Virus record (IMG/VR): IMGVR_UViG_3300020578_000006 | Coordinates: 165,718-229,717 of that record | Length of the DNA: 64,000 nucleotides | Source: a virus | Direction: 5' to 3' (one strand) | Shown here: one piece after another, positions 25,533 to 44,736 of the stretch | How positions within the stretch are numbered: position 1 is the first letter of the stretch | How the letters are laid out: every line of letters starts with the position of its first letter | Made by a program: the position numbers and the translations under genes | The notes under the pieces: generated by a model | Databases searched by the model: none | Told to the model about the DNA's origin: nothing | The model's input: the letters and a program-made list of their open reading frames with translations, nothing else

Positions 25533-28500
25533 TTATTCTACTCTTATAAACCCACCGCTTAATGCGATGTAAGACAGTAGAACCTCCGTGCTTAATGCAT
25601 CTAATCCGATTCTTAAATGAATTGGATTTGCGGGATTATAATCCATAGAAACTAAAGGCAGATTTGAAGTACCGTCGTTTTCCAAAGCATCAGACGCTTG
25701 GAATATAACTTTAGTACTTCCACCAACATCTATTGCTGCCCCGACAAACTGCTTTACCAAAGAGCGAACATTTTTGAGAGTATTTGTTCCGCTCAATTTA
25801 ATAATATCTGTTGAGGTTTCATCAGACCAATTAGGTGGGGTAGTCTGGGTGGCTTGAACTCTGAGATGTTTAGCTACATTACTGTTTGTCATATCAAGAT
25901 ACAGCATACCTCTTAATGATCCGCCTTCTAACAATCTATTTCCTAGATCATTTGCACTTAGTGTAATATAATTACTATATTCCATTTGCACCGCGGGGGT
26001 CATAGAAGCCATGTAAGGTGTGAGTGTATATCTTAAATTACTTAAACTATTAACAGTTGTGTGAGTGCTGTCCCAATCAGCTGAAGTCTCATTTACAGAA
26101 GTATAAGTACTATCCCAATCAGCTGAAGTCTCATTTACAGAAGTATAAGTACTATCCCAGTCGGCTGAAGTCTCTGAAACCGATGTATAAGTTGAATTCC
26201 AGTCGGCTGAAGTCTCTGAAACCGATGTATAAGTTGAATTCCAGTCGGCTGAAGTCTCATTTACAGAAGTATAAGTACTATCCCAGTCGGCTGAAGTCTC
26301 ATTTACAGAAGTATAGGTACTATCCCAATCAGCTGAAGTCTCATTTACAGAAGTATAAGTACTATCCCAATCAGCTGACGTCTCTGAAACCGATGTATAA
26401 GTACTAACCCAATCAGCTGAAGTCTCACTTACAGATGTGTATGTAGCATCCCAATTAGCTGATGTTTCACTAACGGAAGTGTATGTGGCATCCCAGTTAG
26501 CAGAGGTTTCACTGACGTCTGTATATGTAGCATCCCAATTAGCTGATGTATTGCTAACGTCTGTATAGACATTGTTCCAATCAGCTGATGTTTCACTAAC
26601 GTCGGTGTATGTGGCATCCCAGTTAGCAGATACCGTGGCTATATCATTGGTTACAGAACTATATGCTTGATCCCAATCAGCTGATGTTTCACTAACGTCG
26701 GTGTATGTGGCGTCCCAGGTAGCAGAAGTGTTACTAACGTCGGTATAGACGTTGTTCCAATCTCCGCTTAACACATTTACCGTATCTCTAGAAGATTGAA
26801 GAGGTATTAATATTTCATCCACATCAGTTTTTGTGTAATATAATGAAGATACAAAATTACCGCTAACGGAGGCAAACTCTAAAACCAGTGAATCGACATA
26901 TCGTTTAGATACAAACTCATCTGCATTTGTAAAATTAGTAGACAAGGTTTGAGAAGTTGTTAACTTCCCGATCATATTGTCACCTATATCTCTTATGTAG
27001 CTATTGCTAAGCGTGTTGTAGGTTGTATAGGTACCGTTCCATTTTAAGGAGTTGTTATTAACATAATCATATGTGGCATCCCAGTTAGCAGTTACCGGGG
27101 CTATATCATTGGTTACAGAACTATAAGCTTGATCCCAGTTAGCAGTTACCGGGGCTATATCATTGGTTACAGAGCTATAAGCTTGATCCCAGTTAGCAGT
27201 TACCGGGGCTATATCATTGGTTACAGAGCTATAAGCTTGATCCCAGTTAGCACTGGTTTCGCTTACCGAGGTGTAAGTGCTGTCCCAGTCAGCCGAAGTT
27301 TCGCTTACCGATGTATAAGCTTGATCCCAGTTAGCACTGGTTTCGCTTACCGAGGTGTAAGTGCTGTCCCAGTCAGCCGAAGTTTCGCTTACCGATGTAT
27401 AAGTTGAATCCCAATTGGCGCTAGCTTCACTTACAGAAGTATAAGTACTATCCCAGTCGGCTGAAGTCTCTGAAACCGATGTATAAGTTGAATTCCAGTC
27501 GGCTGAAGTCTCACTTACAGAAGTATAAGTACTATCCCAATCAGCTGACGTCTCTGAAACCGATGTATAAGTACTATCCCAATCAGCTGAAGTCTCATTT
27601 ACAGAAGTATAAGTACTATCCCAATCAGCTGACGTCTCTGAAACCGATGTATAAGTTGAATTCCAGTCGGCTGAAGTCTCATTTACAGAAGTATAAGTAC
27701 TATCCCAATCAGCTGACGTCTCACTTACAGAAGTATAGGTACTATCCCAATCAGCTGACGTCTCACTTACAGAAGTATAGGTACTATCCCAATCAGCTGA
27801 CGTCTCACTTACAGCTGTATATGTAGCATCCCAATTAGCTGACGTCTCACTTACAGCTGTATATGTAGCATCCCAATTAGCTGACGTCTCACTTACAGCT
27901 GTATATGTAGCATCCCAATTAGCTGACGTCTCACTGACGTCTGTATATGTAGCATCCCAATTAGCTGAAGTCTCACTGACGTCTGTATATGTAGCATCCC
28001 AATTAGCTGAAGTCTCACTTACAGAAGTATAAGTACTATCCCAATCAGCTGACGTCTCACTTACAGAAGTATAGGTACTATCCCAATCAGCTGATGTTTC
28101 ACTTACCGAGGTGTAAGTACTATCCCAATTGGCGCTAGCTTCACTTACTGATGTGTAAGTGCTATCCCAACTAGCAGACGCAGTTTGTAACGGTGTTATA
28201 AAAGCTGATTCTTCCCAACTATCCGACAATGATCTTACTAGAGTTTCGACACTCCCCCAACCAGCTGAATTAGTTCTGGTTGTACTGTAAACCGAATCCC
28301 AACTAGCAGACGCGGTTTGTAACGGTGTTATAAAAGCTGATTCTTCCCAACTATCCGACAATGATCTTACTAGAGTTTCAACACTCTCCCAACCAGCTGA
28401 ATTAGTTCTGGTTGTACTGTAAACCGAATTCCAATCATTACTATTTCCGTTAAAAGCATAAACTATATTCCTGGCGCTTAAATTAGAACTAACATTTACG

Positions 28501-31500
28501 CCATTTAAAAATGATATATGTAAAGTGTTTGCCCCGGTACCAGGTGTATCGTCACTATCAGAAATTACAGCTGAATTCCCTGCAGTAGCACTATAAAGAT
28601 CTGTTACTGATAAACTTGCTAGATGGGTAAGGGCTCCTATGGTAACTTCATTGCTAGAGAGGTATTGCAAAACGGTACTTAATGCAAAATCTGGTTGCCA
28701 GTATCCGGAATTGGTTGTTGTTGTATTATAATTACTTACCCAGTTATTACTGTTTCTGCCATTTCCTGTTCCTGCTAAATCTATGCTGTTAGAAATATTT
28801 AAACCTGCACTAATAGTTACCGTTGTCGAATTAATCTCAAATAAATTTCTTCTAACTGTATCCGAAGTGCCGTTACCAACAATAAAGAGACTTGATGACG
28901 GTTGATTGTATAAACCTATAACAACCTGATTAGATCCGTTGCTAATTAATGATTCACCACCTACGGTGACAGAATTATTACCATAAACATAATTGTTTCT
29001 TCCTGCAAAATTACCAGAAAAATTACCTACTACTACACCTTGATATCCTAAGCCGTAAGAAAAATTACCGTAAGACTCTGATACACTACCTAGTACACTG
29101 TTTTTAATTGTACCTCCGCTAAGATAAGAAAAATTATCTGCACTGGTAAACCTATAGTTCTCTCTCTCAAAATAAAACCCTGCTGTACCGAATGTTGGTC
29201 TATGTACTGTGTCTTGTGAACCACCGTACAATACCCAGCCAGCATTTCCAGCTGCAGAACAAGATATTGTTATGTTTTCAAATGCATATGAATCCATTAA
29301 ATTACCTATAGTAATTTCTAGATCGTTTCCATTTTTTGCTCTTACATAAGCATCAAAATAGCCGTATCTGTAAGTATTACTGTTGGTTAAGGTGTTGTTG
29401 GGTCTATCTGGTAAAATAAATCCTGTTCCCGCAGGGGATGTGGAGGGCATTTCCCTTGGTACCCATAATGTAAGAGGGGAGCCACTCTTAAGTCCAGTTA
29501 AAACACTAGAATTAGTAAATCTAACTAAAACATGTTTAGGAATATTTTTATAATTACCTGTAAGACCTACGTAATCAGTACCTGGTGTTCCAATTTGACT
29601 TGTAATAATAGAGACACCAGGGTTCCCTCCATTTGCTCTAGACTGTAAATTGACATTTTGTCTTGTTTTTTGTGCTGGTACCCAGTTGGATTGATTACCT
29701 ATAAATAAATCAAATCTAAACGTGGAGAGCGTTGGGTTAGCAGAAACCTGAGTACACTGTGCATTATATGATGCTGCTACTATACCGGCGACCCCTGGGT
29801 TAACAGCCAGAGTGACAACCTCACCAACATTGATTAGAGAATAGTTTGTATTGGTGGTTGAGTTAACTCCAATTAATACCCCTGTCAATCTATCAGTATT
29901 TGTTAAAAGTAAAGCGTTGTTAGTGTCAACAAATCCACCCTGATTGGCAGTAATAGTTGTAGAAATTTGAAATTGAGGTAGGGTGTGTACAAAAAATCTA
30001 TTTGTATACCCGCTAGGTAGGTTATAACCATAAACATCGCTAACATTACCACCCATGGTCATTTGCCATTCTCGGGTAGCGTTAAATGGCGCGCCTACCC
30101 ACATTACGTGGGTGTGATCTGAACCCCCGGTAAAGTTATTAATACCTGCTCTAAAAGTCATTCCGTGTGTAATGGCGGCTCTTCCATCACTTACAAATGT
30201 TGTGCCTGGGTCCATGTTATCTACGTTTTGAATATGAAGTCCGTAGACACCTAGGTTAGGTAAATTCCTTACGGAAGTATCGTAAGTAGGTGATTGGCCT
30301 TTAAGTATCAAGCCGCCAGGTAATGCAAAAGTTGATTCGGAATTAAAGAAATCGTAATTTTGCCGAAGCGTTGCACTTAAGGCAGGGTAATCTGAGTTTT
30401 TAACTAGCGTTCCAATCTTAGGTGAAATTACTATTCCACCGGCGCTAATTCTATCTGTTACAGTATTGCTTAGTGTTCTTACGTCGTTTGTAGAAAGATA
30501 GTTTGTTACTGTAGGTAGTATTTCAGCACTTTCTTCCCAAGTCGTGGATAGTGCTTGTACAGTGTTCTTAACACTATCCCAACCAGCTGATATTTCTGAA
30601 ACCGATGTATATGTCGAATTCCAGTTAGCAGTTACCGGGGCTATATCATTGGTTACAGAGCTATAAGCTTGATCCCAGTTAGCAGTTACCGGGGCTATAT
30701 CATTGGTTACAGAGCTATAAGCTTGATCCCAATTAGCAGATGTATCCCTTACAGATGTGTAATTATTATCCCACTTAGCACTATTCTGACTTACTGAGGT
30801 GTATGTTCCTCCACCATCGTTCCAGCTTGCACTAACAGCAGCTACACTACCATAAACACTATCCCAGTTAGCAGAGTTGTTTCTACTAGATGTATAATTG
30901 CTGTTCCAATTAGCTGATACAGCAGCAACATCTGATATAAAACTAGATTCTTCCCAAGCATCTGAGAGTGACCTTACTGTTGTTTCGACTGATTCCCAGC
31001 CAGCTGAATTACCTTGGGTAGTACTATAAACTGAATTCCAGTTAGCAGAAGTATCTCTTACAGATGTTTCAACTGATTCCCAACCCCCACTATTACTTTG
31101 TGTGGTGCTATATACACTATTCCAGTTAGCAGATGTATCCCTTACAGATGTGTAATTATTATCCCACTTAGCACTATTCTGACTTACTGAGGTGTATGTT
31201 CCTCCACCATCGTTCCAGCTTGCACTAACAGCAGCTACACTACCATAAACACTATCCCAGTTAGCAGAGTTGTTTCTACTAGATGTATAAACTGAATCCC
31301 AATTAGCAGAATTATTTCTACTAGATGTATAATTGCTGTTCCAATTAGCTGATACAGCAGCAACATCTGATATAAAACTAGATTCTTCCCAAGCATCTGA
31401 GAGTGACCTTACTGTTGTTTCGACTGATTCCCACCCTCCACTATTATTTTGGGTAGTACTATATACACTATTCCAGTTAGCGGATGTATCCCTTACAGAT

Positions 31501-33035: not shown

Positions 33036-33093
33036 ATTCATTCCTCCTTTCATACATTGATAATAACATATGTGTAGAATAAATCAACATACT

Positions 33094-33354
33094 ATGAGCG
33101 AAAAGATAAATAATTTTATGAGAGATTGCGTTTGGATAAGAGCTGCTTTATATTTTTTTATTGCCGCAATCCCGGCATTAATGGTTGATCTCGGTCAGTA
33201 TAAATCTTTTAGCGAAATAAGTGATATTACTGTGGCTATTATCGTTGCTAATTTTCTTCTTCAAGGGTTAATTGCAGTCCGGGCATTTATTGATCAATCT
33301 ATTAGTCGTACTAAAGAAAGAAAAGAAAAAAAGGTTGAACTGATAAATGGCTAA
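33094..33354 (+). CDS. Holin-like membrane protein
   Basis: 86 aa from ATG at 33094 (an upstream ATG at 33070 is less likely, as an AATAAATC box lies between them). Two membrane segments, about residues 14-36 (WIRAALYFFIAAIPALMV) and 48-70 (VAIIVANFLLQGLIAV), and a highly charged Lys/Arg/Glu tail, as in holins. First gene of the lysis cassette; overlaps the next gene by 8 nt. Confidence 0.65.
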   Translation: MSEKINNFMRDCVWIRAALYFFIAAIPALMVDLGQYKSFSEISDITVAIIVANFLLQGLIAVRAFIDQSISRTKERKEKKVELING

Positions 33355-33826
33355 CCTAAGTACTTACATGAATATATTTCTACCTTTAGCTCTAATAACA
33401 ATTTTAGCCGGTTGCTCTACCACAAATAACGGTGGTGGTTCCGATGTTGGCGGTACTACACCCAGTCAGGCTGTAGAGAATGCTTTACCTTATATTGCCC
33501 CGGCTGTAACTCTTGCCTGTACGGTTGTCTTGGAGCAAGCCGTTTCCCCAGAAGATAGAGTAGAGAAGGCAAAGATGATTAATCATGTTGCAACTATTGT
33601 TGAAAGTCTAACCCGTGGTGCAACCCCAACACCGGATCAACTTCAAAAAGCTTTAGTTGATTATCTACCTCAAGACAAGACACACTGGGTAAAATATATA
33701 ACAGTGGTTAAGGACATTTATGCAGCACAATTTGCAAAGCTTGATGGTGATGCAAAGCTTGGTATAGATTTACTCAATGCTATTGCCAAGGGCTGTAAGA
33801 CAGCAACCGACGAATACGTAGAGTAA
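33347..33826 (+). CDS. Lipoprotein of the lysis cassette
   Basis: 159 aa. Signal peptide with lipobox LAGC (cut before Cys at about residue 25), a Gly/Ser linker, then a helical domain. May be an outer-membrane spanin-like partner or another envelope factor; too long for a typical o-spanin. Two further lipoproteins follow. Confidence 0.6.
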   Translation: MANLSTYMNIFLPLALITILAGCSTTNNGGGSDVGGTTPSQAVENALPYIAPAVTLACTVVLEQAVSPEDRVEKAKMINHVATIVESLTRGATPTPDQLQKALVDYLPQDKTHWVKYITVVKDIYAAQFAKLDGDAKLGIDLLNAIAKGCKTATDEYVE

Positions 33827-33827
33827 A

Positions 33828-34019
33828 ATGGACTTTACCGCCATCTTTAAAGCAATTGGCGAGGTATTCGGATTAATAAACAACTGGATGGGTCATAAGA
33901 ATACCCCGGAAATGAAAAAAGCTGAACAACAGCAAAAAGAAGTTGACCGTCAAAATGAAATTGAAAAAGCTTTAAAGGAGAAAGATATTGAAAAGCTTCG
34001 CCGTTTGCTATCTCAGTAG
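33828..34019 (+). CDS. Small helical protein of the lysis cassette
   Basis: 63 aa. Amphipathic N-terminus (MDFTAIFKAIGEVFGLINNW) then a long charged coiled-coil-like helix (EQQQKEVDRQNEIEKALKEK). No true membrane segment. Could be an i-spanin-like or regulatory protein. Overlaps the next lipoprotein by 32 nt. Confidence 0.5.
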   Translation: MDFTAIFKAIGEVFGLINNWMGHKNTPEMKKAEQQQKEVDRQNEIEKALKEKDIEKLRRLLSQ

Positions 34020-34404
34020 CTTAATTCTTGTAGGGTGTGCAACAGTAACACCTGATAAAGTTAAAGATAATACTGCTTCGTTTGATTCAACTACCCCACA
34101 GCAATATGACTCACACAACTCAGGTGTAATCGGGTTTAGTCCCGAAGGCAAAGGTATACTAACAAGTAACGGGGTAGAGCGCTACAATAATCTCATAAAG
34201 GATTACAAACTACAATTTAGAGCGTCAAAAGGTGTAGAATTAAAAGAAAATGATGGTATTACAGAGTTTCTGGACAAACACGGTAATGTTCTGTTTTATA
34301 TCGACCATCAACACTTAGTTTATTTTGGCATTTTGAATAGCTGGAGACGAGATGGTAAAGATGTGGATGGGCTTTGGGATAAAGCAAAGGCATGGGTAAA
34401 GTGA
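33988..34404 (+). CDS. Lipoprotein
   Basis: 138 aa. MKSFAVCYLSSLILVGCATV carries a lipobox (LVGC). The mature part has a Ser/Thr-rich stretch and a C-terminal domain with HQHLVYFGILNSWRRDG. Overlaps both neighbours. Role in lysis is inferred from position only. Confidence 0.6.
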   Translation: MKSFAVCYLSSLILVGCATVTPDKVKDNTASFDSTTPQQYDSHNSGVIGFSPEGKGILTSNGVERYNNLIKDYKLQFRASKGVELKENDGITEFLDKHGNVLFYIDHQHLVYFGILNSWRRDGKDVDGLWDKAKAWVK

Positions 34405-34547
34405 AGCTACTTCTTATTGCAGTTGCAGTGATGTTGTCTTCTTGTGCGCCGGTTTCAGTAGAGGAAGAATATAAGACAAAATACCCGGAAGTCCCAACTA
34501 TGCAATCTGCAGAAGACGCTAATACTGGTCAGTTATTCAAGGAGTAG
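34392..34547 (+). CDS. Small lipoprotein, o-spanin-like
   Basis: 51 aa. MGKVKLLLIAVAVMLSSCAP has a lipobox (LSSC), leaving a mature peptide of about 33 residues with Pro and acidic residues. This size and design match outer-membrane spanin subunits of phage lysis cassettes. Overlaps the previous gene by 13 nt and sits 2 nt before the endolysin, whose SD (AAGGAG) lies in its last codons. Confidence 0.6.
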   Translation: MGKVKLLLIAVAVMLSSCAPVSVEEEYKTKYPEVPTMQSAEDANTGQLFKE

Positions 34548-34549
34548 TT

Positions 34550-35152
34550 ATGGGCTGGTCATCTAGAGATAATAACTTACGTAGAAGATCTAATCAACCT
34601 TCTTCTAGTAAGCCTATAGAACCAAAGAAAAAGGATAAACCGATTGTAATACAACCTCTTGTATCTGAAAAAACAGATTTAAGTGTTTTGGATGAAAGAA
34701 GTGCAAAGAATGTTGCAACTCTACACACAAAAGTTCAACAGCTATTTAAAAATTGGATTGCTGAATGTCAAATATTGGCCAAAGCACACGGCTATGAGTA
34801 CAAGGCAATTTCAGGAAATAGAACATGGGAAGAACAAGCAAAAATTTATGCACAAGGAAGAACGGCACCAGGTAAGATTGTTACTAACGCAAAACCTGGA
34901 TTCAGTAATCACAATTACGGAATTGCCGTAGATATGGGAGTTTTTAAGGATGGAAAATATCTAGATAGTTCTAAGCCTTCAGAAGCAGAAGCATTTCATA
35001 GAAAAGCTGCTACTGTTGCAGAAAAATATGGTATTGAATGGGGCGGTAGTTGGAAATCGTTCAAAGACTATCCCCATTTTGAATATAAAACCGGTAAAAC
35101 AATTTCACAATTAAGACAGATAGTTCTAGAAGGTAAAGATATTTTGGCCTAA
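34550..35152 (+). CDS. Endolysin, M15 D-Ala-D-Ala/L-Ala-D-Glu carboxypeptidase-like
   Basis: 200 aa. Zinc ligands H121 and D128 in SNHNYGIAVDMG, and H176 in YPHFEY; SGNRTWEEQAKIYAQGR is the substrate-loop segment of the VanY/M15 family. A basic, Ser/Pro-rich N-terminal tail of about 45 residues precedes the enzyme domain. It cuts peptidoglycan stem peptides. It follows holin-like and lipoprotein genes. Confidence 0.85.
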   Translation: MGWSSRDNNLRRRSNQPSSSKPIEPKKKDKPIVIQPLVSEKTDLSVLDERSAKNVATLHTKVQQLFKNWIAECQILAKAHGYEYKAISGNRTWEEQAKIYAQGRTAPGKIVTNAKPGFSNHNYGIAVDMGVFKDGKYLDSSKPSEAEAFHRKAATVAEKYGIEWGGSWKSFKDYPHFEYKTGKTISQLRQIVLEGKDILA

Positions 35153-37738: not shown

Positions 37739-37960
37739 TCATTCATTTACAACAAATACTGTATAATGTCCGTTGCCAACACATTCATAATAGTATCTAA
37801 ACTTCTCATCTCCTTCCAAATAGACCCCGTAAACATCTTGTCCATTAAAATATTCTTTCAAACAAAGAACCTCATGTTTGCCAATTTTATCCTTGATCCA
37901 TCTTACAGCTTCATACACATCTCCTTCGTGAACTATTACTTTAAGATCATTTAGATTCAC
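37739..37960 (-). CDS. Small hypothetical protein
   Basis: 73 aa from GTG at 37960. Acidic and aromatic (KFRYYYECVGNGHYTVFVVNE). Overlaps the upstream membrane-protein gene by 14 nt and ends the operon that starts with the PEP-CTERM genes. Confidence 0.5.
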   Translation of the reverse strand: MNLNDLKVIVHEGDVYEAVRWIKDKIGKHEVLCLKEYFNGQDVYGVYLEGDEKFRYYYECVGNGHYTVFVVNE

Positions 37961-38201
37961 TATCTTCTCCTGCTGCTGTCTGTATATCTAATTTGTTACT
38001 GTAAACCTTTTCTAAGACGGCTATAGACATAATACCTATAATTATAAACGCTGCAATAATTGAAACAGCTTTGCAAATTGTTCTTCTGACATTTTGCCTC
38101 TTATGGTATGCTTTATAAGAAGAAAGAAAATTATTAAAATAGTCAGAGGAAGGCGAATTAAGATCAGAAGCCCTCTTAATAAGTCTCGAAAGCTCATTCA
38201 T
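37947..38201 (-). CDS. Small single-span membrane protein
   Basis: 84 aa from ATG at 38201, which overlaps the amylase stop (ATGA). Basic N-terminal half (KAYHKRQNVRRTICK), one membrane helix (AVSIIAAFIIIGIMSIAVL), and a short acidic tail. Transmembrane anti-sigma-like layout, but no motif confirms that. Confidence 0.5.
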   Translation of the reverse strand: MNELSRLIKRASDLNSPSSDYFNNFLSSYKAYHKRQNVRRTICKAVSIIAAFIIIGIMSIAVLEKVYSNKLDIQTAAGEDSESK

Positions 38202-41200
38202 TGGGGCCCTCTTGTTGCACAACTAAAATTAATAGTCGCAGTATTTTTAACTGCTGCAGCGTTTAATGAGGCTACATCTGACTCCATAGAATCTTCTACC
38301 ATAATTATTTTTATTGCAGCAGTTCCAAATGCTGGTATGTTCTTATACATAAATCTCCATTCTTTTTCATATCTAGAATTTACATCTACTTTAGGAACTT
38401 GTGCCCATGCTAAATTACCTTTAGACCCATCAGGGTTAACAAGAACACCATTTCCATTGTCCTCTCCGGTTGCCGCATCATCGTTAAGAGCGTTAGCATC
38501 TCTTATATTATAGAATACTTCCTTTACAGTGCTATCTGTTTTTATAACAAATTCGTAGTTTTGACTAGTTAATGTTTCTCCCGGTCTAGGATAAAGAATT
38601 TGACCTGAAGGGGGTTTAGAATCATAATAAAAAACTTGAGTAAAAGTATTATAGTAAGGTGTAAAGCCTGGCGCCTTAAGGAATGCTCGAGCTCTTAATA
38701 CATGATAGCCTTCTTCCAAGCCCACTCTTTTACTTGCAAAATCATTATGTACATAGTTTTCAACTGTTGTTGCATTAAAATTAGTTACAGAAAATTGTGA
38801 TGCCATTTTGCTTTTTATACTGACCATATTACCGTTAGAAGGAAAAACACTTAATGTATCTAAATAAGTGCCGCCAATTTTATAACGCAATTGACCCGTT
38901 GGCCAAGGTATTTGTACAGACCACCAATACGTAGGTCTTCCATTACCATCATTCGGACCAGTTCCGTCTCTTATAGCTTCTAGTACTCTTGTTGAAGCTA
39001 TTGCAGCTACGCCTCCATAGCCCTCAGGAAAAGAAATACCATCAGTTGTGTAATATACAAAAAGTTTAGCATTATTATAATACTCACCAGTTTTGATTCT
39101 AATAGTGGCACTTGAAGCATTAGCTACAAACTGACGTCTACCATCTGCAATTACGTTTGGATCATGATAGATGTAATCGGAAGGTGTAAAGAATGCGTTA
39201 GGACCATTTCCTAAATTAAAATTAACTCTTCTAAGCCCCTTTATAGCTATATAGGTTTCAGCTCCTTGCGAACCTACTATATTACGATTAACGTTAGCTG
39301 CAGCAAACTTATCTCTTACTCGGTAATCAAATTTCATTTGTTCATAACCTAAAAACATATCATCAGTGCCTGGGGGATAGTCCCTCTTGATGTCCGTCAT
39401 CGAACCCAGGCCCATTTGAGAGTTAACGTCAACCCCTCCATCTAGTTTTAATAATACATTTTCCGCTGAGCCATCGAGTTGTACAATAAAGCTTAAATTT
39501 TGACCAGATCTTACAATAGGAATAAATGTTTCATATGTATAATCAGAAGTGTTTGTATCATATAAGCCATAAGGGTTAAACGCTGCATCTCCATTCGTTC
39601 CATCTTTTCTTTTAACTTTTATGTAAGGAACATTAGTACCGTTTTCTCTTATGTTTATAGCATTTAAACCTGTGTTTAAAGTAGGTCTTTCAGGAGTACG
39701 ATAAGAGAACATATAATAACTACTAGGCGGGACTATGACATTTCTTAATTCGTTTGCATACTTATAAAACCCTACTTGACCAGATCCGTTGGGCCCGGTA
39801 GCATATTGAAACAGATAAGCATCAGAAGGAAATGAAGAAGTAATAGGTGCAGACTTTCCATTCCATCTATTTCCGTTTATCATTGCGATCATAGTAACTC
39901 CGGTTGCATCAGAAGATGCACCATATCTTCTATCTATTCTTTCATAAGCAACATAATCGTTATTGGACCATATTCCCTTTTGACTGCCTCTTGCAAAATT
40001 ATTATGTATTTTAACTAAATTAGGAATCCTAGGGTCACTCCATTGTCCAAGAAAAGCTGAATTTGCTATACGGGGAAATTCACCTCCTGAATTTGTTAGT
40101 ACCCCTGCATGGTAATTGCCATCTGTATATATAAGAGGAAGGCCTGCTCTAGTAAAATAGAATGCGTGTTGAATATGGCGGTCGGTAGACCAACCATTAT
40201 CGTGAGATTGTGAATGCATAACAGCTACATCTGAACCAAAGCCTCCTGAGCCTTGACCATCAAAGCCAGATAAATTATTCCCTATTCTGTTATCTAGATT
40301 ACTTTTAAGAATATTATCTACTAGTCTCATTCCTGCATTAATATAATCACCATAAGGAGGTGGTTCACCGAGGTGCTCACCAAACATCATAGCATCATCT
40401 CTACCTAGATCAGTATTAAAAACACTATCTCGGTGATTGATATCTGCAAAGCCTCTAGATATATTAAACTGTCTTTGTGCTTGACCTACATAACCATAAT
40501 CAGAAAAATCTTTATCAGTTCCATAAGAAGCACCAAAGAAATCATATGGCACGTGCTTTACAGCGTCTAATCTTAATCCATCACATTTAGTTCTATCCAT
40601 AAACCAACGTACCGCTCTATTAAGATATTCTTCTACGTACTCTGAATAATATGCTTCATTAGCAGCAAGATACTCAACTGTTAATCCATTCTCATAACCA
40701 AACCCTACATAATTACCGTTTGCGTCATAACAATAAAATTCTGGGTTATTAGGATGTCTTAAGAACTTTACCTTTTGTGTCCACCATCCCTCGTTTGGTC
40801 CATGATTCTTATTCCAGATACCCGTCTCTGTAGCAATATCTATTAAATCAGATAATCCTCTGTTTTGTACTTCCCATACATTACCCCAATCACTTGTGTT
40901 ATACCATTTGCGGTAAGTACCATCAGGCATTAACTTAAGATGAAAGTCTTCAGGTCTCATTCCTGGATACAAATCAAGAGGTGTATCAGCTGTATACCCA
41001 GGTGTATCAAACCCGCGGTGATTCATTATATTATCAAAATAAACTCTGATACCAAAACGGTGTGCGGTTTCAATTAACATCATGAGTTCAGCTTCAGTAC
41101 CATACCTTGTATAAGTAGAACCTCTTTGGTCTTTAGAACCTAAATCAAATGGATCAAATAAATCATATCCTACTGAAAATGAACTACCAGCTTTTGCAGG

Positions 41201-41356
41201 GGGAGGAAGCCATAGAGAATCATAACCTACTTCTGCAAGTTCAGGAAGCTTGGCAGTAATTTCTGCCCAACTAGTATTAAAATACTGAAGCATAGCCTCA
41301 GCTTGAACGTTAACTGAAATGAAAAGAGAAGCGAAAAATGCAATTGCCCTTTTCAT
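38198..41356 (-). CDS. Secreted GH13 alpha-amylase-type glycoside hydrolase
   Basis: 1052 aa. Signal peptide at 1-19 (MKRAIAFFASLFISVNVQA). All four GH13 motifs are visible: DNIMNH (108-113), GLRLDAVKH (nucleophile D264), FGEH (acid/base E327) and SHDN (H385-D386). The barrel ends near residue 560, followed by about 490 residues of beta modules (RPTYWWSVQIPWPTGQLRYK; PPSGQILYPRPGETLTSQNY). It acts on alpha-glucans outside the cytoplasm. It lies in an operon with PEP-CTERM and pseudopilin genes, yet has a phage late box 5 nt before its ATG. Probably acquired from a host. Confidence 0.88.
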   Translation of the reverse strand: MKRAIAFFASLFISVNVQAEAMLQYFNTSWAEITAKLPELAEVGYDSLWLPPPAKAGSSFSVGYDLFDPFDLGSKDQRGSTYTRYGTEAELMMLIETAHRFGIRVYFDNIMNHRGFDTPGYTADTPLDLYPGMRPEDFHLKLMPDGTYRKWYNTSDWGNVWEVQNRGLSDLIDIATETGIWNKNHGPNEGWWTQKVKFLRHPNNPEFYCYDANGNYVGFGYENGLTVEYLAANEAYYSEYVEEYLNRAVRWFMDRTKCDGLRLDAVKHVPYDFFGASYGTDKDFSDYGYVGQAQRQFNISRGFADINHRDSVFNTDLGRDDAMMFGEHLGEPPPYGDYINAGMRLVDNILKSNLDNRIGNNLSGFDGQGSGGFGSDVAVMHSQSHDNGWSTDRHIQHAFYFTRAGLPLIYTDGNYHAGVLTNSGGEFPRIANSAFLGQWSDPRIPNLVKIHNNFARGSQKGIWSNNDYVAYERIDRRYGASSDATGVTMIAMINGNRWNGKSAPITSSFPSDAYLFQYATGPNGSGQVGFYKYANELRNVIVPPSSYYMFSYRTPERPTLNTGLNAINIRENGTNVPYIKVKRKDGTNGDAAFNPYGLYDTNTSDYTYETFIPIVRSGQNLSFIVQLDGSAENVLLKLDGGVDVNSQMGLGSMTDIKRDYPPGTDDMFLGYEQMKFDYRVRDKFAAANVNRNIVGSQGAETYIAIKGLRRVNFNLGNGPNAFFTPSDYIYHDPNVIADGRRQFVANASSATIRIKTGEYYNNAKLFVYYTTDGISFPEGYGGVAAIASTRVLEAIRDGTGPNDGNGRPTYWWSVQIPWPTGQLRYKIGGTYLDTLSVFPSNGNMVSIKSKMASQFSVTNFNATTVENYVHNDFASKRVGLEEGYHVLRARAFLKAPGFTPYYNTFTQVFYYDSKPPSGQILYPRPGETLTSQNYEFVIKTDSTVKEVFYNIRDANALNDDAATGEDNGNGVLVNPDGSKGNLAWAQVPKVDVNSRYEKEWRFMYKNIPAFGTAAIKIIMVEDSMESDVASLNAAAVKNTATINFSCATRGPQ

Positions 41357-41361
41357 ATTAA

Positions 41362-41369
41362 TATTTATT
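41362..41369 (-). promoter_or_regulatory. T4-late-type box of the amylase gene
   Basis: AATAAATA, minus strand, 5 nt before ATG at 41356; overlaps the end of the pseudopilin gene. Confidence 0.6.
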
Positions 41370-41925
41370 TGGCAAACAATTTCTTATCTTTATATGGACA
41401 AAAACTATATACATCATCAAAAGGTGTCTTGTTAGGATCGTCCTGCTTTTGATTTTTACCTAAGCTTACTACTATGAAATCTTTAGGTACATTTTCTTGA
41501 AAGTTTTTACCATAATATTCTACTTTACCAGAACCGTCTATATCCCATTTTAATGCATATTGATTCTTCCACGGGTCAAGTAAGGTACCATCTTCTTTTA
41601 TACCTTCACCATAATAAGGTCTTAAGATTTTACATACATCTTTACTATCATCTATTCTAGTAGGAGGACCATACCATGCGTAATATTCATGGTCAAAAGG
41701 ATACCCCTTTCTAGGCGCAGGCCATGCAATCAAGCCATTTTCAGATTTATAAAGCTGTACAGCATGATACAACCCTCTCATTTCTACATTCTGTACTTTA
41801 GATATTTTTGTTTTTTCTTGTATATGCTGGTAAGCAGGAAATGACAAGCTAACTAGTAAAAGAATGATGCTGACGGCTACAAGCATCTCTATAATAGTAA
41901 ATGCTGTAGCCGTCAGCTTCTTCAT
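41365..41925 (-). CDS. Type II secretion pseudopilin (GspG/H-like)
   Basis: 186 aa. The N-terminus TATAFTIIEMLVAVSIILLLVSLSFPAYQHI is a prepilin signal (here the Gly before FTIIE is replaced by Ala) with a hydrophobic helix. The mature part has DPWKNQYALKWDIDGSGKVEY, typical of GspG-type pseudopilins with a Ca site. A cellular envelope gene type, rare on phages. It sits 2 nt from its upstream neighbour. Confidence 0.8.
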   Translation of the reverse strand: MKKLTATAFTIIEMLVAVSIILLLVSLSFPAYQHIQEKTKISKVQNVEMRGLYHAVQLYKSENGLIAWPAPRKGYPFDHEYYAWYGPPTRIDDSKDVCKILRPYYGEGIKEDGTLLDPWKNQYALKWDIDGSGKVEYYGKNFQENVPKDFIVVSLGKNQKQDDPNKTPFDDVYSFCPYKDKKLFAK

Positions 41926-41927
41926 TC

Positions 41928-42581
41928 TTACTTTCTCTTTTTAAGAAGTAGTAGTGCGCTAACACCTAACAATGATAGGATTGAAGGTTCGGGTACAGCA
42001 GTAAATTGTGTTAAGTAATTTACTCCCCCGTTGCTTGCATAGTTTTCAAAACTACCACTGCTTCCACCGTTAGACCATGTAAAGTCAGCCTTTGCATACA
42101 TTTCTATTGTGTATGTTTTAGGTGCTTGAATGGTACCAGCGGTTACGTTCTGTAATAAGTTAACAGAAGAATTGGCTGCCCAATATTTGTTAACGTTACC
42201 ATCAGTCCATGAGTTACTAAACGGAACGTTATATGAACTGAATGCACCTTTATCAGCTGCACCAGTTTCATACACCCTCCAGTATAAAGTAACTGCATTA
42301 GCAGAATCTGTAGAACTTTGCCAGGTTTTAGCAGTTGCACTAGCTAATTGTAGTAACCCACCTTGATTCATGTTAATAGTACCAAGGCTAGCAGGTAAAG
42401 AATTAGCAGGGTTTGGACCATGGGTATCACCAAGCAAATTATAGAACGTAGTTGCTTGATTAATCACATCCAAACTAGAAGCATCTACACTAAACCCAAC
42501 ACCTACTGCATACATAGTATTGGCATAAGATGCTGATGCTAACCCTAAACTTATTACAATAGCTAGAATTAATTTATTCAT
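41928..42581 (-). CDS. PEP-CTERM sorted exported protein
   Basis: 217 aa. Signal peptide MNKLILAIVISLGLASASYA, a beta-rich body, and a C-terminal VPEPSILSLLGVSALLLLKKRK, which is a textbook PEP-CTERM signal (PEP, hydrophobic span, basic tail) for an exosortase. ATGA overlap with the gene upstream. Confidence 0.85.
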   Translation of the reverse strand: MNKLILAIVISLGLASASYANTMYAVGVGFSVDASSLDVINQATTFYNLLGDTHGPNPANSLPASLGTINMNQGGLLQLASATAKTWQSSTDSANAVTLYWRVYETGAADKGAFSSYNVPFSNSWTDGNVNKYWAANSSVNLLQNVTAGTIQAPKTYTIEMYAKADFTWSNGGSSGSFENYASNGGVNYLTQFTAVPEPSILSLLGVSALLLLKKRK

Positions 42582-44146
42582 ACATTACCCTCCTTTCTTT
42601 TGAGCGTTCTTATTGCAAGTACCCCTAGTCCTCCAAGCAGCATTAAGCTACCAGCAGAGGGTTCAGGAATACCTGAAACTTCAATGTTATTAACAAACAG
42701 ACCATAGTTTGGTTGATCTGCTGTAGTGGTCTGTATGTCACCTGCATAGAAGTGAATAGTAGTAATATAATCCGGCACATTTACATTAGTCACAAATAAC
42801 ACCTCTGGATTTCCGTATAAATAAGCACTTACTTCAACAAGTGTAGGGGTTAATTGCTCTACCATGTAAGTTAATGCTTGTTGATAGCCATTGGCTAACA
42901 CCTGAGTATTAGTTAATCCAGTACCTGCAAAGGTAATAGGATCTGACCATACATTCTGGAATCTAAACACTGCAGTGTTTCCAGACATGAATTCAACACC
43001 TCGGTTACCTCCATTCCAAAGATAGTTTGCATCTACTGATAGAGTTTGACCTGCTATAAGGCCACCACCATTGAGTACAAACCAACCGTTTGAGTATTGA
43101 TTATAAGCCGTATTACCAGGTACAAAATTAAATGCACTTGCTCCAATACTAGTTCTTCCTCCTTGAGAGGAATTACTAATCTGGGTTATAGCAGATGTGT
43201 CATTTTGGAAGTACCAAGTACCTACACTTGTACCAGCACCTTCTATCCATGTTGCAGTGGTATAGCTGCTGGCATCCTCTATACCTAATACAGCTGCATG
43301 TGTTGTATTTAGACTAAAGATAGCGAGCAATGCAGCAAGCAAGCTAACTTTAGTTTTGTTTTTTGTTCTCATAAAACCTAATAATGTTGCGCCTATTACA
43401 AGCAATAACCAAGTATCTGGTTCAGGAATAATACCTACATCAGAGAGCGAATCACCCACAGATAGATAATCAATATGCACAACAGGTGCTGCAGTTGCAG
43501 AACCTTGTCTTAAGTTAATAGCAGATATAAAAGAAGCTGGCTCTGAACCTGTAGTAGATAGCCAATTAACTGTTCCTAGTTCTGCTACAAGTAATGATCT
43601 GTTTGTATCATTAGGGTTTATGTACAAGCTAAATGTATCATTAAGAGTGCCAGCTACAAAATCCCATGCCATAACTATAGTGTATTCAGTGTTAAAATCT
43701 AATAATGTAGTTCCCCAGGTCATTGCAGATCCTGTGCCTGATGCAGATTGTAATCCCAGTTGAAATCCAGCACCTGAGCTTCTAGCAGCCAATCTTTGAT
43801 AAAAATTGGAAGAAGTACCTGCAGGGTCAGATAGGTTTAAGAAGTAATCACCATTAACAAAGGCAGATGCAATTTTAAGATCTACTCTTGTATATAAAGT
43901 ATTACCAGACGTCTTTACTACTTGTGAAGTTAGTGCTTTCCAAACATCTTGACCTGTTGTATTAATAATTGCTTTACCATCTTGGTACTGAATAGGATTA
44001 TTAGAAGCAGTGGATGTTTGAGTCCATCCATTCTGCCCTACTAGATTTCCATTTACATATCCTGTTGAAAAGTCATCAATTAGATATGTTGCTGCATTGA
44101 GATTTATAGCTACCAATGCAAGTAGTGTTGTTATTAGTTTTTTCAT
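42578..44146 (-). CDS. Fused double PEP-CTERM protein
   Basis: 522 aa. Signal peptide 1-18 (MKKLITTLLALVAINLNA), first beta domain, then at about residues 240-262 IPEPDTWLLLVIGATLLGF plus basic MRTKNKTK, a complete PEP-CTERM signal. Directly after it comes a second signal peptide (KVSLLAALLAIFSLNTTHA), a second beta domain, and a final IPEPSAGSLMLLGGLGVLAI with RTLKRKEGN. It looks like two adjacent genes joined in frame. ATGA overlaps at both ends. Confidence 0.82.
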   Translation of the reverse strand: MKKLITTLLALVAINLNAATYLIDDFSTGYVNGNLVGQNGWTQTSTASNNPIQYQDGKAIINTTGQDVWKALTSQVVKTSGNTLYTRVDLKIASAFVNGDYFLNLSDPAGTSSNFYQRLAARSSGAGFQLGLQSASGTGSAMTWGTTLLDFNTEYTIVMAWDFVAGTLNDTFSLYINPNDTNRSLLVAELGTVNWLSTTGSEPASFISAINLRQGSATAAPVVHIDYLSVGDSLSDVGIIPEPDTWLLLVIGATLLGFMRTKNKTKVSLLAALLAIFSLNTTHAAVLGIEDASSYTTATWIEGAGTSVGTWYFQNDTSAITQISNSSQGGRTSIGASAFNFVPGNTAYNQYSNGWFVLNGGGLIAGQTLSVDANYLWNGGNRGVEFMSGNTAVFRFQNVWSDPITFAGTGLTNTQVLANGYQQALTYMVEQLTPTLVEVSAYLYGNPEVLFVTNVNVPDYITTIHFYAGDIQTTTADQPNYGLFVNNIEVSGIPEPSAGSLMLLGGLGVLAIRTLKRKEGNV

Positions 44147-44736
44147 AATCTTTTTCTTAATGCTAGTAATCCTAGTAATGTTAAATGTAAGGTTGAAGGT
44201 TCAGGAACTACTTCAATTATTTCATTACCTCCGTTATAAGAAAATGTACCTACCAATGCTGTAGTATTAGAAGAGAAGACAAACGATTCCATATTAGGTG
44301 TGCTATCAAACAGAGGGGCGCGCCATAAAGTATCAGTTAAAATAGCTTTATCGTAAGAACTGTTATAAGGTGCAGCTGTAAAATTAACTAGGTCTGCATC
44401 ATATATAGCTAATGCAAGTTGTGTATTTACCGCAACATCAGTATTATCTATTTTGCTATAATTGATTTGCATCTCAAGAAAATCTACTCCCGTATCAACA
44501 AAACCTGTACCGTTAGGAAGAGGGGAGAAAATACCATTACTATAAGTACCCCATAACGCTGACATGTAACGGGTATTAACTGTATTATTATCTACAAGAA
44601 CAGAAAATAAATCGTCATACAAAACTATAGAAGAAACAGCTTTGGATTCGGACACCATAAACCAACCAATAAAAAAGCCGCACATTGTGCGGCTTAGCAT
44701 CTTTAAAGCGTTATAAGCGCTCTTGTATCCTAGCAT
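44143..44736 (-). CDS. PEP-CTERM sorted exported protein
   Basis: 197 aa from ATG at 44736 (an in-frame ATG at 44793 is possible; another at 44700 opens the best signal peptide, MLSRTMCGFFIGWFMVSESKA). The C-terminus VPEPSTLHLTLLGLLALRKRL is a PEP-CTERM signal. First gene of the acquired operon. An intrinsic terminator-like hairpin (44671-44695) lies inside its signal-peptide codons. Confidence 0.75.
   Translation of the reverse strand: MLGYKSAYNALKMLSRTMCGFFIGWFMVSESKAVSSIVLYDDLFSVLVDNNTVNTRYMSALWGTYSNGIFSPLPNGTGFVDTGVDFLEMQINYSKIDNTDVAVNTQLALAIYDADLVNFTAAPYNSSYDKAILTDTLWRAPLFDSTPNMESFVFSSNTTALVGTFSYNGGNEIIEVVPEPSTLHLTLLGLLALRKRL
44671..44695 (-). terminator. Intrinsic terminator-like hairpin inside a signal-peptide coding region
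   Basis: Minus strand AAGCCGCACA-A-TGTGCGGCTT followed by TTTTATT: a 10-bp perfect inverted repeat with a T run. It overlaps codons for LSRTMCGFF of the PEP-CTERM gene, so it may attenuate the operon or mark an old junction. Confidence 0.6.

Follow-up and report, generated by a model that had tools for sequence, protein, structure and literature searches.

A large T4-like phage of about 230 kb, of the jumbo-phage type, carries two cassettes in which PEP-CTERM genes stand together with a pilin gene. On balance we favour the reading that both are host-derived surface or secretion cassettes, with which the phage would refit the surface of an infected, exosortase-bearing cell. One cassette lies on the minus strand at positions 37739-44736 of the window (the 64,000 nucleotides that we analysed, being the last 64 kb of the 229,717-base virus record G000); its PEP-CTERM signals number four, spread over three ORFs, and it also encodes a GspG-like pilin and a secreted GH13 alpha-amylase. 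The other, outside the window, is a PEP-CTERM and pilin pair, an exosortase-type substrate and a pilin that selection has kept together in these phages; the direct evidence for selection belongs to this second cassette and not to the window operon.

The window operon and its sorting signals

The record encodes core phage functions: terminase, portal, tail sheath, family B DNA polymerase, replicative helicase, ribonucleotide reductase and endolysin. A second, separate assembly (L003) contains the operon block with both flanks, and differs from G000 at 5 bases over 20.2 kb; two of these are inside the amylase gene, both synonymous. Outside window 27388-31120, the repeat-rich part of a 2179-aa fibre-like ORF that is changed in length in L003, the aligned L003 stretch is 99.98% identical to G000. 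GC3 of the operon is 0.22-0.26 against a phage mean of 0.263 (sd 0.051), and its GC likewise equals that of the phage, whereas most cellular loci with a related amylase have a GC of 0.50-0.69; the operon has probably been long resident in an AT-rich genome. The first-pass annotation had raised the possibility of an assembly chimera, with breaks at about 37.3 and 44.8 kb. We reject this, since L003 spans both junctions, the composition fits the phage, and the core phage genes lie in the same 229.7-kb genome. Beside the operon, window 33070-35152 holds what looks like a lysis cassette, with genes for a small membrane protein, lipoproteins and an endolysin; its lipoprotein ORF at 33347-33826 has a counterpart of 80% identity in G305.

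The operon has seven genes, all on the minus strand (window coordinates):

44143..44736, minus: PEP216, a secreted protein with a C-terminal PEP-CTERM signal (VPEPSTLHLTLLGLLALRKRL)
42578..44146, minus: PEP522, an in-frame fusion of two PEP-CTERM proteins
41928..42581, minus: PEP217, a PEP-CTERM protein of family 'B', which is amylase-adjacent in Verrucomicrobiota/Kiritimatiellota
41365..41925, minus: pilin186, a GspG-like pilin or pseudopilin (TAFTIIEMLV...)
38198..41356, minus: amylase1052, a secreted GH13 alpha-amylase of 1052 aa
37947..38201, minus: ORF91, a small one-helix membrane protein
37739..37960, minus: ORF73, a small soluble ORF with a GTG start

The start of PEP216 was set at the ATG at 44736, which has a Shine-Dalgarno-like GAGGGAG ahead; a longer ORF reaches 44793. 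It had been proposed that all the genes are joined by ATGA overlaps, and this holds for three junctions (PEP216/PEP522, PEP522/PEP217 and amylase/ORF91, the ORF91 ATG at 38201 lying over the amylase stop), while PEP217 and the pilin gene are separated by 2 bases, the pilin and amylase genes by 8, and ORF91 and ORF73 overlap by 14 bases at the GTG. The seven genes still form a tight operon. A search for late-promoter-like words gave no clear result, and family searches with ORF91 and ORF73 returned no informative match.

TIGR02595 scores above its cut-off (16 bits) in all three PEP-CTERM ORFs, at two stretches in PEP522, and PF07589 above its own in two of the three. Tails combining a PEP motif, a hydrophobic stretch and a basic end occur in 4 of the 341 phage ORFs, against 0.015 expected from shuffled tails. 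There are four signals in three genes because PEP522 is a fusion: its motifs lie near residues 240 and 490, with an internal signal-peptide-like stretch from M259, and the basic tail of the first motif runs directly into this second signal-peptide-like stretch (MRTKNKTKVSLLAALLAIFSLNTTHA), the joint consisting of the tail IIPEPDTWLLLVIGATLLGFMRTKNKTK followed by the stretch VSLLAALLAIFSLNTTHA. N-terminal signal peptides were recognized by eye in PEP216 and PEP522, and by eye and with a simple pattern in PEP217 and in PEP238 of the second cassette. The second half of PEP522 looks by eye like host family A, which flanks amylases, but a profile gave this assignment no support and we rejected it. 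A fold search with the predicted structure of PEP217 found nothing; both this model and that of PEP238 are of low confidence (the two pLDDT values being 51 and 58).

Pilin186 has the prepilin N-terminal motif with Glu at +5 (TAFTIIEM). Its TIGR02532 score is borderline (14.8 bits in one search and 17.9 in another; cut-off 16.3) and it resembles GspG (E 9e-7, under the cut-off), while assignment as the GspG equivalog was rejected, TIGR01710 giving 29.0 bits where 88.85 are needed. The three PEP-CTERM genes and the pseudopilin of the first-pass annotation are thus borne out, the former by TIGR02595 and the latter by its TIGR02532 and GspG resemblance.

The amylase scores 48.5 bits with PF00128 (cut-off 22) and is matched by solved alpha-amylases; its N-terminus looks by eye like a typical signal peptide. 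Candidate catalytic residues, assigned by motif, are D264 (GLRLDAVKH), E327 (FGEHLGE) and D386 (SHDNG).

Cellular relatives and the likely host

Relatives of the amylase were found in two other phages (L004 and L005, 59-60% identity), though none in annotated phage records. The three phage amylases share a Sec-type N-terminus and are invariant at D264, E327 and D386. In a tree they form one clade (SH-aLRT 100) nested in a cellular radiation, beside marine Opitutia (support 92), and this single clade inside the cellular amylases points to one old capture. We found 79 cellular loci with amylase relatives, nearly all from Verrucomicrobiota, Kiritimatiellota or Lentisphaerota. The cellular homologues are mostly of about 2800 aa, and nothing beyond the first 1050-1180 aa is kept in the phages; in two that were scanned, GH13 is accompanied by a GH57-like part and a TSP3 repeat. 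Loci L009-L087 show this to be a giant secreted protein family with a GH13 N-terminus, almost confined to Verrucomicrobiota and kin; its genes are often succeeded by one for another large secreted protein, which is GH13 in the single case scanned.

In L004 and L005 the amylases sit among head, structural or tail-fibre-like ORFs, without PEP-CTERM or pilin partners of the window type. A domain in two tail-fibre-like ORFs of L004 (10000-13224 and 13627-17001, minus) recurs in a host PEP-CTERM family (seed A; E 1e-18 to 5e-27); seed A flanks amylases, and the domain is a surface-protein domain common to host and phage fibre.

Relatives of PEP217 (family B) precede the giant amylase in L022, L054, L061 and L033, a sample biased by having been found via the amylase; in loci found via family B itself they lie beside a giant amylase (L177), a GH77 malQ (L176) and a GH13 amylase (L175). 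The nearest relative of pilin186 that we found is cellular (39%), directly upstream of a DUF4380+GH13 amylase whose start it overlaps, and flanked on its other side by a LacI-type regulator; this pilin-amylase order is that of the phage. Annotated phage records held no pilin186 relative. The cellular counterparts are loci for the utilisation of alpha-glucan, in which regulators of the LacI type, malQ and additional GH13 enzymes are encoded. Because PEP217 kin stand beside amylases or malQ and pilin186 kin precede a GH13 amylase, the window operon resembles a host alpha-glucan locus in condensed form. With the Verrucomicrobiota/Kiritimatiellota loci (L022, L054, L061, L142, L175-L177) it has in common the homologous amylase, a PEP-CTERM gene of family B and a pilin gene placed immediately before that of a GH13 amylase; the phage differs in having only the N-terminal ~1050 aa of a ~2800-aa amylase, all parts in one operon, and no LacI regulator. 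Judging from sequence kinship, the amylase, PEP217 and pilin186 are evidently of host-type origin.

The search for homologous blocks that had been suggested succeeded in candidate host genomes, where kin of these three genes occur in alpha-glucan loci; in other phages it recovered the amylase (L004, L005). In viral contigs, PEP216 and PEP522 were found only in the second copy of the same phage, and neither they nor PEP217 and pilin186 were found outside this population. Annotated phage records gave one weak match to PEP522, covering its first half (MT838529.1, a 5.7 kb faecal phage record; 4032-4757, 25%, E 9e-6). The operon is absent from the sequenced stretches of the phage's relatives, whose records are fragments. 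We class it as a putative moron or auxiliary cassette, apparently host-derived and non-core, on a true phage genome.

No exosortase and no prepilin peptidase was detected on the phage, so that the PEP-CTERM and pilin signals could be read by host enzymes only. The signal peptide, PEP motif, hydrophobic stretch and basic tail are those of the PEP-CTERM/exosortase sorting systems of Gram-negatives (substrates PF07589/TIGR02595, enzyme PF09721), in which, too, substrates stand without their own enzyme nearby; unlike in the bacterial systems, the substrates are here on a phage in which the enzyme was not detected. Exosortase is present in 9 of the 10 tested genomes with amylase relatives, and prepilin peptidase in 11 of the 12 tested genomes holding relatives of these phage genes. 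The host is probably of an exosortase-bearing Verrucomicrobiota/Kiritimatiellota type, as judged from these relatives rather than from a CRISPR spacer or an isolate. Dependence on host machinery and an exosortase-bearing host had both been foreseen in the first-pass annotation; the check for a phage exosortase that it proposed gave none, and the relatives in Verrucomicrobiota and kin agree with its hint about the host.

A second PEP-CTERM and pilin pair

The second cassette, in the same phage but outside the window (G000:C1:12880-14327; L103), has two genes:

G000:C1:13611-14327: PEP238, a PEP-CTERM gene
G000:C1:12880-13614: pilin244, a pilin gene with a 4-base start/stop overlap with PEP238

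Pilin244 scores 16.8-22.2 bits with TIGR02532 and 30.1 bits with TIGR01710, under the required 88.85. The pair recurs in L195 (PEP238/pilin244 identity 72/65%), L196 (57/61%) and L197=L198=L199 (56/61%), with a partial further relative in L211, while annotated phage records held no relative of either gene. It is thus found in four phage lineages (this phage and three diverged ones), in the same order and with the same start/stop overlap, embedded in a shared gene block with 28-56 matching ORFs per record at a median identity of about 50%. Across the lineages the tail keeps its PEP motif, its hydrophobic stretch and its basic end though the letters differ. For the closest pair, L196 and L197, dN/dS is 0.098 for PEP238 and 0.038 for pilin244; more distant pairs are near saturation. 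Beside the pair, and divergent from it, is a conserved gene for a small secreted protein (G000:C1:16317-16622, with kin in L195-L199 at 57-68% identity). A small exported protein of the S26/S24-like signal-peptidase type (Pfam E 1.7e-6) is encoded near the pair in L196 (4199-4540, minus) and also in L198 and L199.

PEP238 relatives occur in 2 of 289 Verrucomicrobiota genomes (G143:C61, G052:C93), both with a full-length pilin244 relative within about 2 kb. Both members are homologous and close together, as in the phages; the cells have an extra gene between them or another orientation, where the phages have the direct 4-base start/stop overlap. Of 21 full-length pilin244 relatives, 12 have a PEP-CTERM C-terminus within 1.5 kb, a modest excess when judged within loci (binomial p 0.004). 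This makes the wider cellular association of PEP-CTERM proteins with pilin244 kin suggestive; for PEP238 in particular there are two cases. In sequence, PEP238 is similar to DNRLRE/CBM96 carbohydrate-binding modules; a cellular relative passes the DNRLRE cut-off, the phage members falling below it, and the low-confidence model of PEP238 gives a hint in the same direction, with a carbohydrate-binding module as its top fold match (E 2.9e-4).

Proposed working, alternatives and significance

In the surface-refitting reading that we favour, host Sec would export the amylase, the pilin and the PEP-CTERM proteins. Host prepilin peptidase would cut the pilin, which would join type II secretion or a type IV pilus-like fibre, and host exosortase would cut the PEP-CTERM tails, releasing proteins to the outer surface or the exopolysaccharide; from the PEP522 fusion, signal peptidase and exosortase would between them produce two surface proteins. 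The amylase would cut alpha-glucan outside the inner membrane. The infected cell would end up with a refitted surface, and most likely alpha-glucan (of capsule, matrix or environment) would be cleared or used. Processing and location, like expression time, substrate and phage benefit, are what we infer from the sequences. The cassettes may thus remodel the surface or help in secreting the amylase, as had been suggested; the benefit may be glucan clearing, feeding or superinfection exclusion.

Superinfection exclusion or receptor masking, in which pilins and PEP-CTERM proteins coat the cell or poison host pili or pseudopili and the amylase trims receptor glycans, is an unlikely alternative. In its favour are the two unrelated pilin and PEP-CTERM sets in one phage, one conserved under purifying selection; proteins that target pili are also known among phage morons (review PMC11436027; PMC8143254). 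The placing of PEP217 and pilin186 kin in cellular alpha-glucan loci speaks instead for polysaccharide handling, as does the likeness of the conserved PEP238 to a carbohydrate-binding module. Those same loci, with their regulators, malQ and further GH13 enzymes, would suit a nutritional role, in which the infected cell digests outside starch or glycogen to feed phage replication and the PEP-CTERM proteins and pilin serve as surface glucan-binding or export aids. Lentisphaerae chronic phages of the same superphylum have ExbB, GH127 and others on record as putative polysaccharide auxiliary genes, with no mention of amylase, PEP-CTERM or pilin (PMC11361711). We consider such a role rather unlikely, however, as the operon's surroundings showed neither a transporter gene nor one for sugar catabolism, the L004 and L005 amylases adjoin structural or tail-fibre-like ORFs without such partners, and slow extracellular feeding would bring little gain in a short lytic cycle.

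The neighbours of those amylases, head or tail-fibre-like ORFs, and the domain that the L004 tail-fibre-like ORFs share with a host PEP-CTERM family would be expected if the amylase and the beta-sandwich proteins were particle components acting at adsorption. A virion-borne depolymerase is nevertheless very unlikely, the Sec-type N-terminus of all three phage amylases and the PEP-CTERM and pilin signals being membrane-export signals unsuited to cytoplasmic virion assembly. That the block is recently acquired host DNA or a functionless assembly chimera is scarcely credible: its PEP-CTERM and pilin genes were not found in other phage lineages among viral contigs, but its frames are intact and overlapping, and the near-identity of L003 across block and flanks and the phage-like GC3 tell against both.

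Within the surface-refitting reading, the pilin may have a narrower task. That an amylase should be encoded next to a GspG-like pilin brings to mind pullulanase, a classical type II secretion cargo. A jumbo-phage clade might keep PEP-CTERM protein and pilin as a unit in which the pilin is a cargo-specific pseudopilin, moving its exosortase-sorted partner (in the window, also the amylase) across the host outer membrane; we hold this to be quite unlikely as it stands.

Phage morons and polysaccharide auxiliary genes are already known, as are genes by which phages alter the surface of the cells they infect; what appears to be new is a phage supplying exosortase substrates with paired pilins. We found no description of a phage-borne PEP-CTERM system in the literature searched, in agreement with the first-pass annotation, which knew of no phage operon using exosortase, nor did that literature yield papers linking PEP-CTERM to prepilins, pseudopilins or auxiliary genes. 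In floc-forming bacteria, PEP-CTERM proteins have been tied to the extracellular matrix and cell aggregation (PMC9850573); the genes described there are chromosomal and betaproteobacterial, whereas those here are on a phage.

The findings draw a link between jumbo phages of rarely cultured hosts and alpha-glucan turnover. The conserved pair offers a two-gene system, present in phages and hosts, for probing PEP-CTERM function: it lets one ask whether pilin-like partners aid the exit of PEP-CTERM proteins, and why there are so many of both in Verrucomicrobiota and kin. If the cargo-specific pseudopilin reading were true, it would expose a general host exit route for PEP-CTERM proteins, made up of exosortase and a dedicated pseudopilin.
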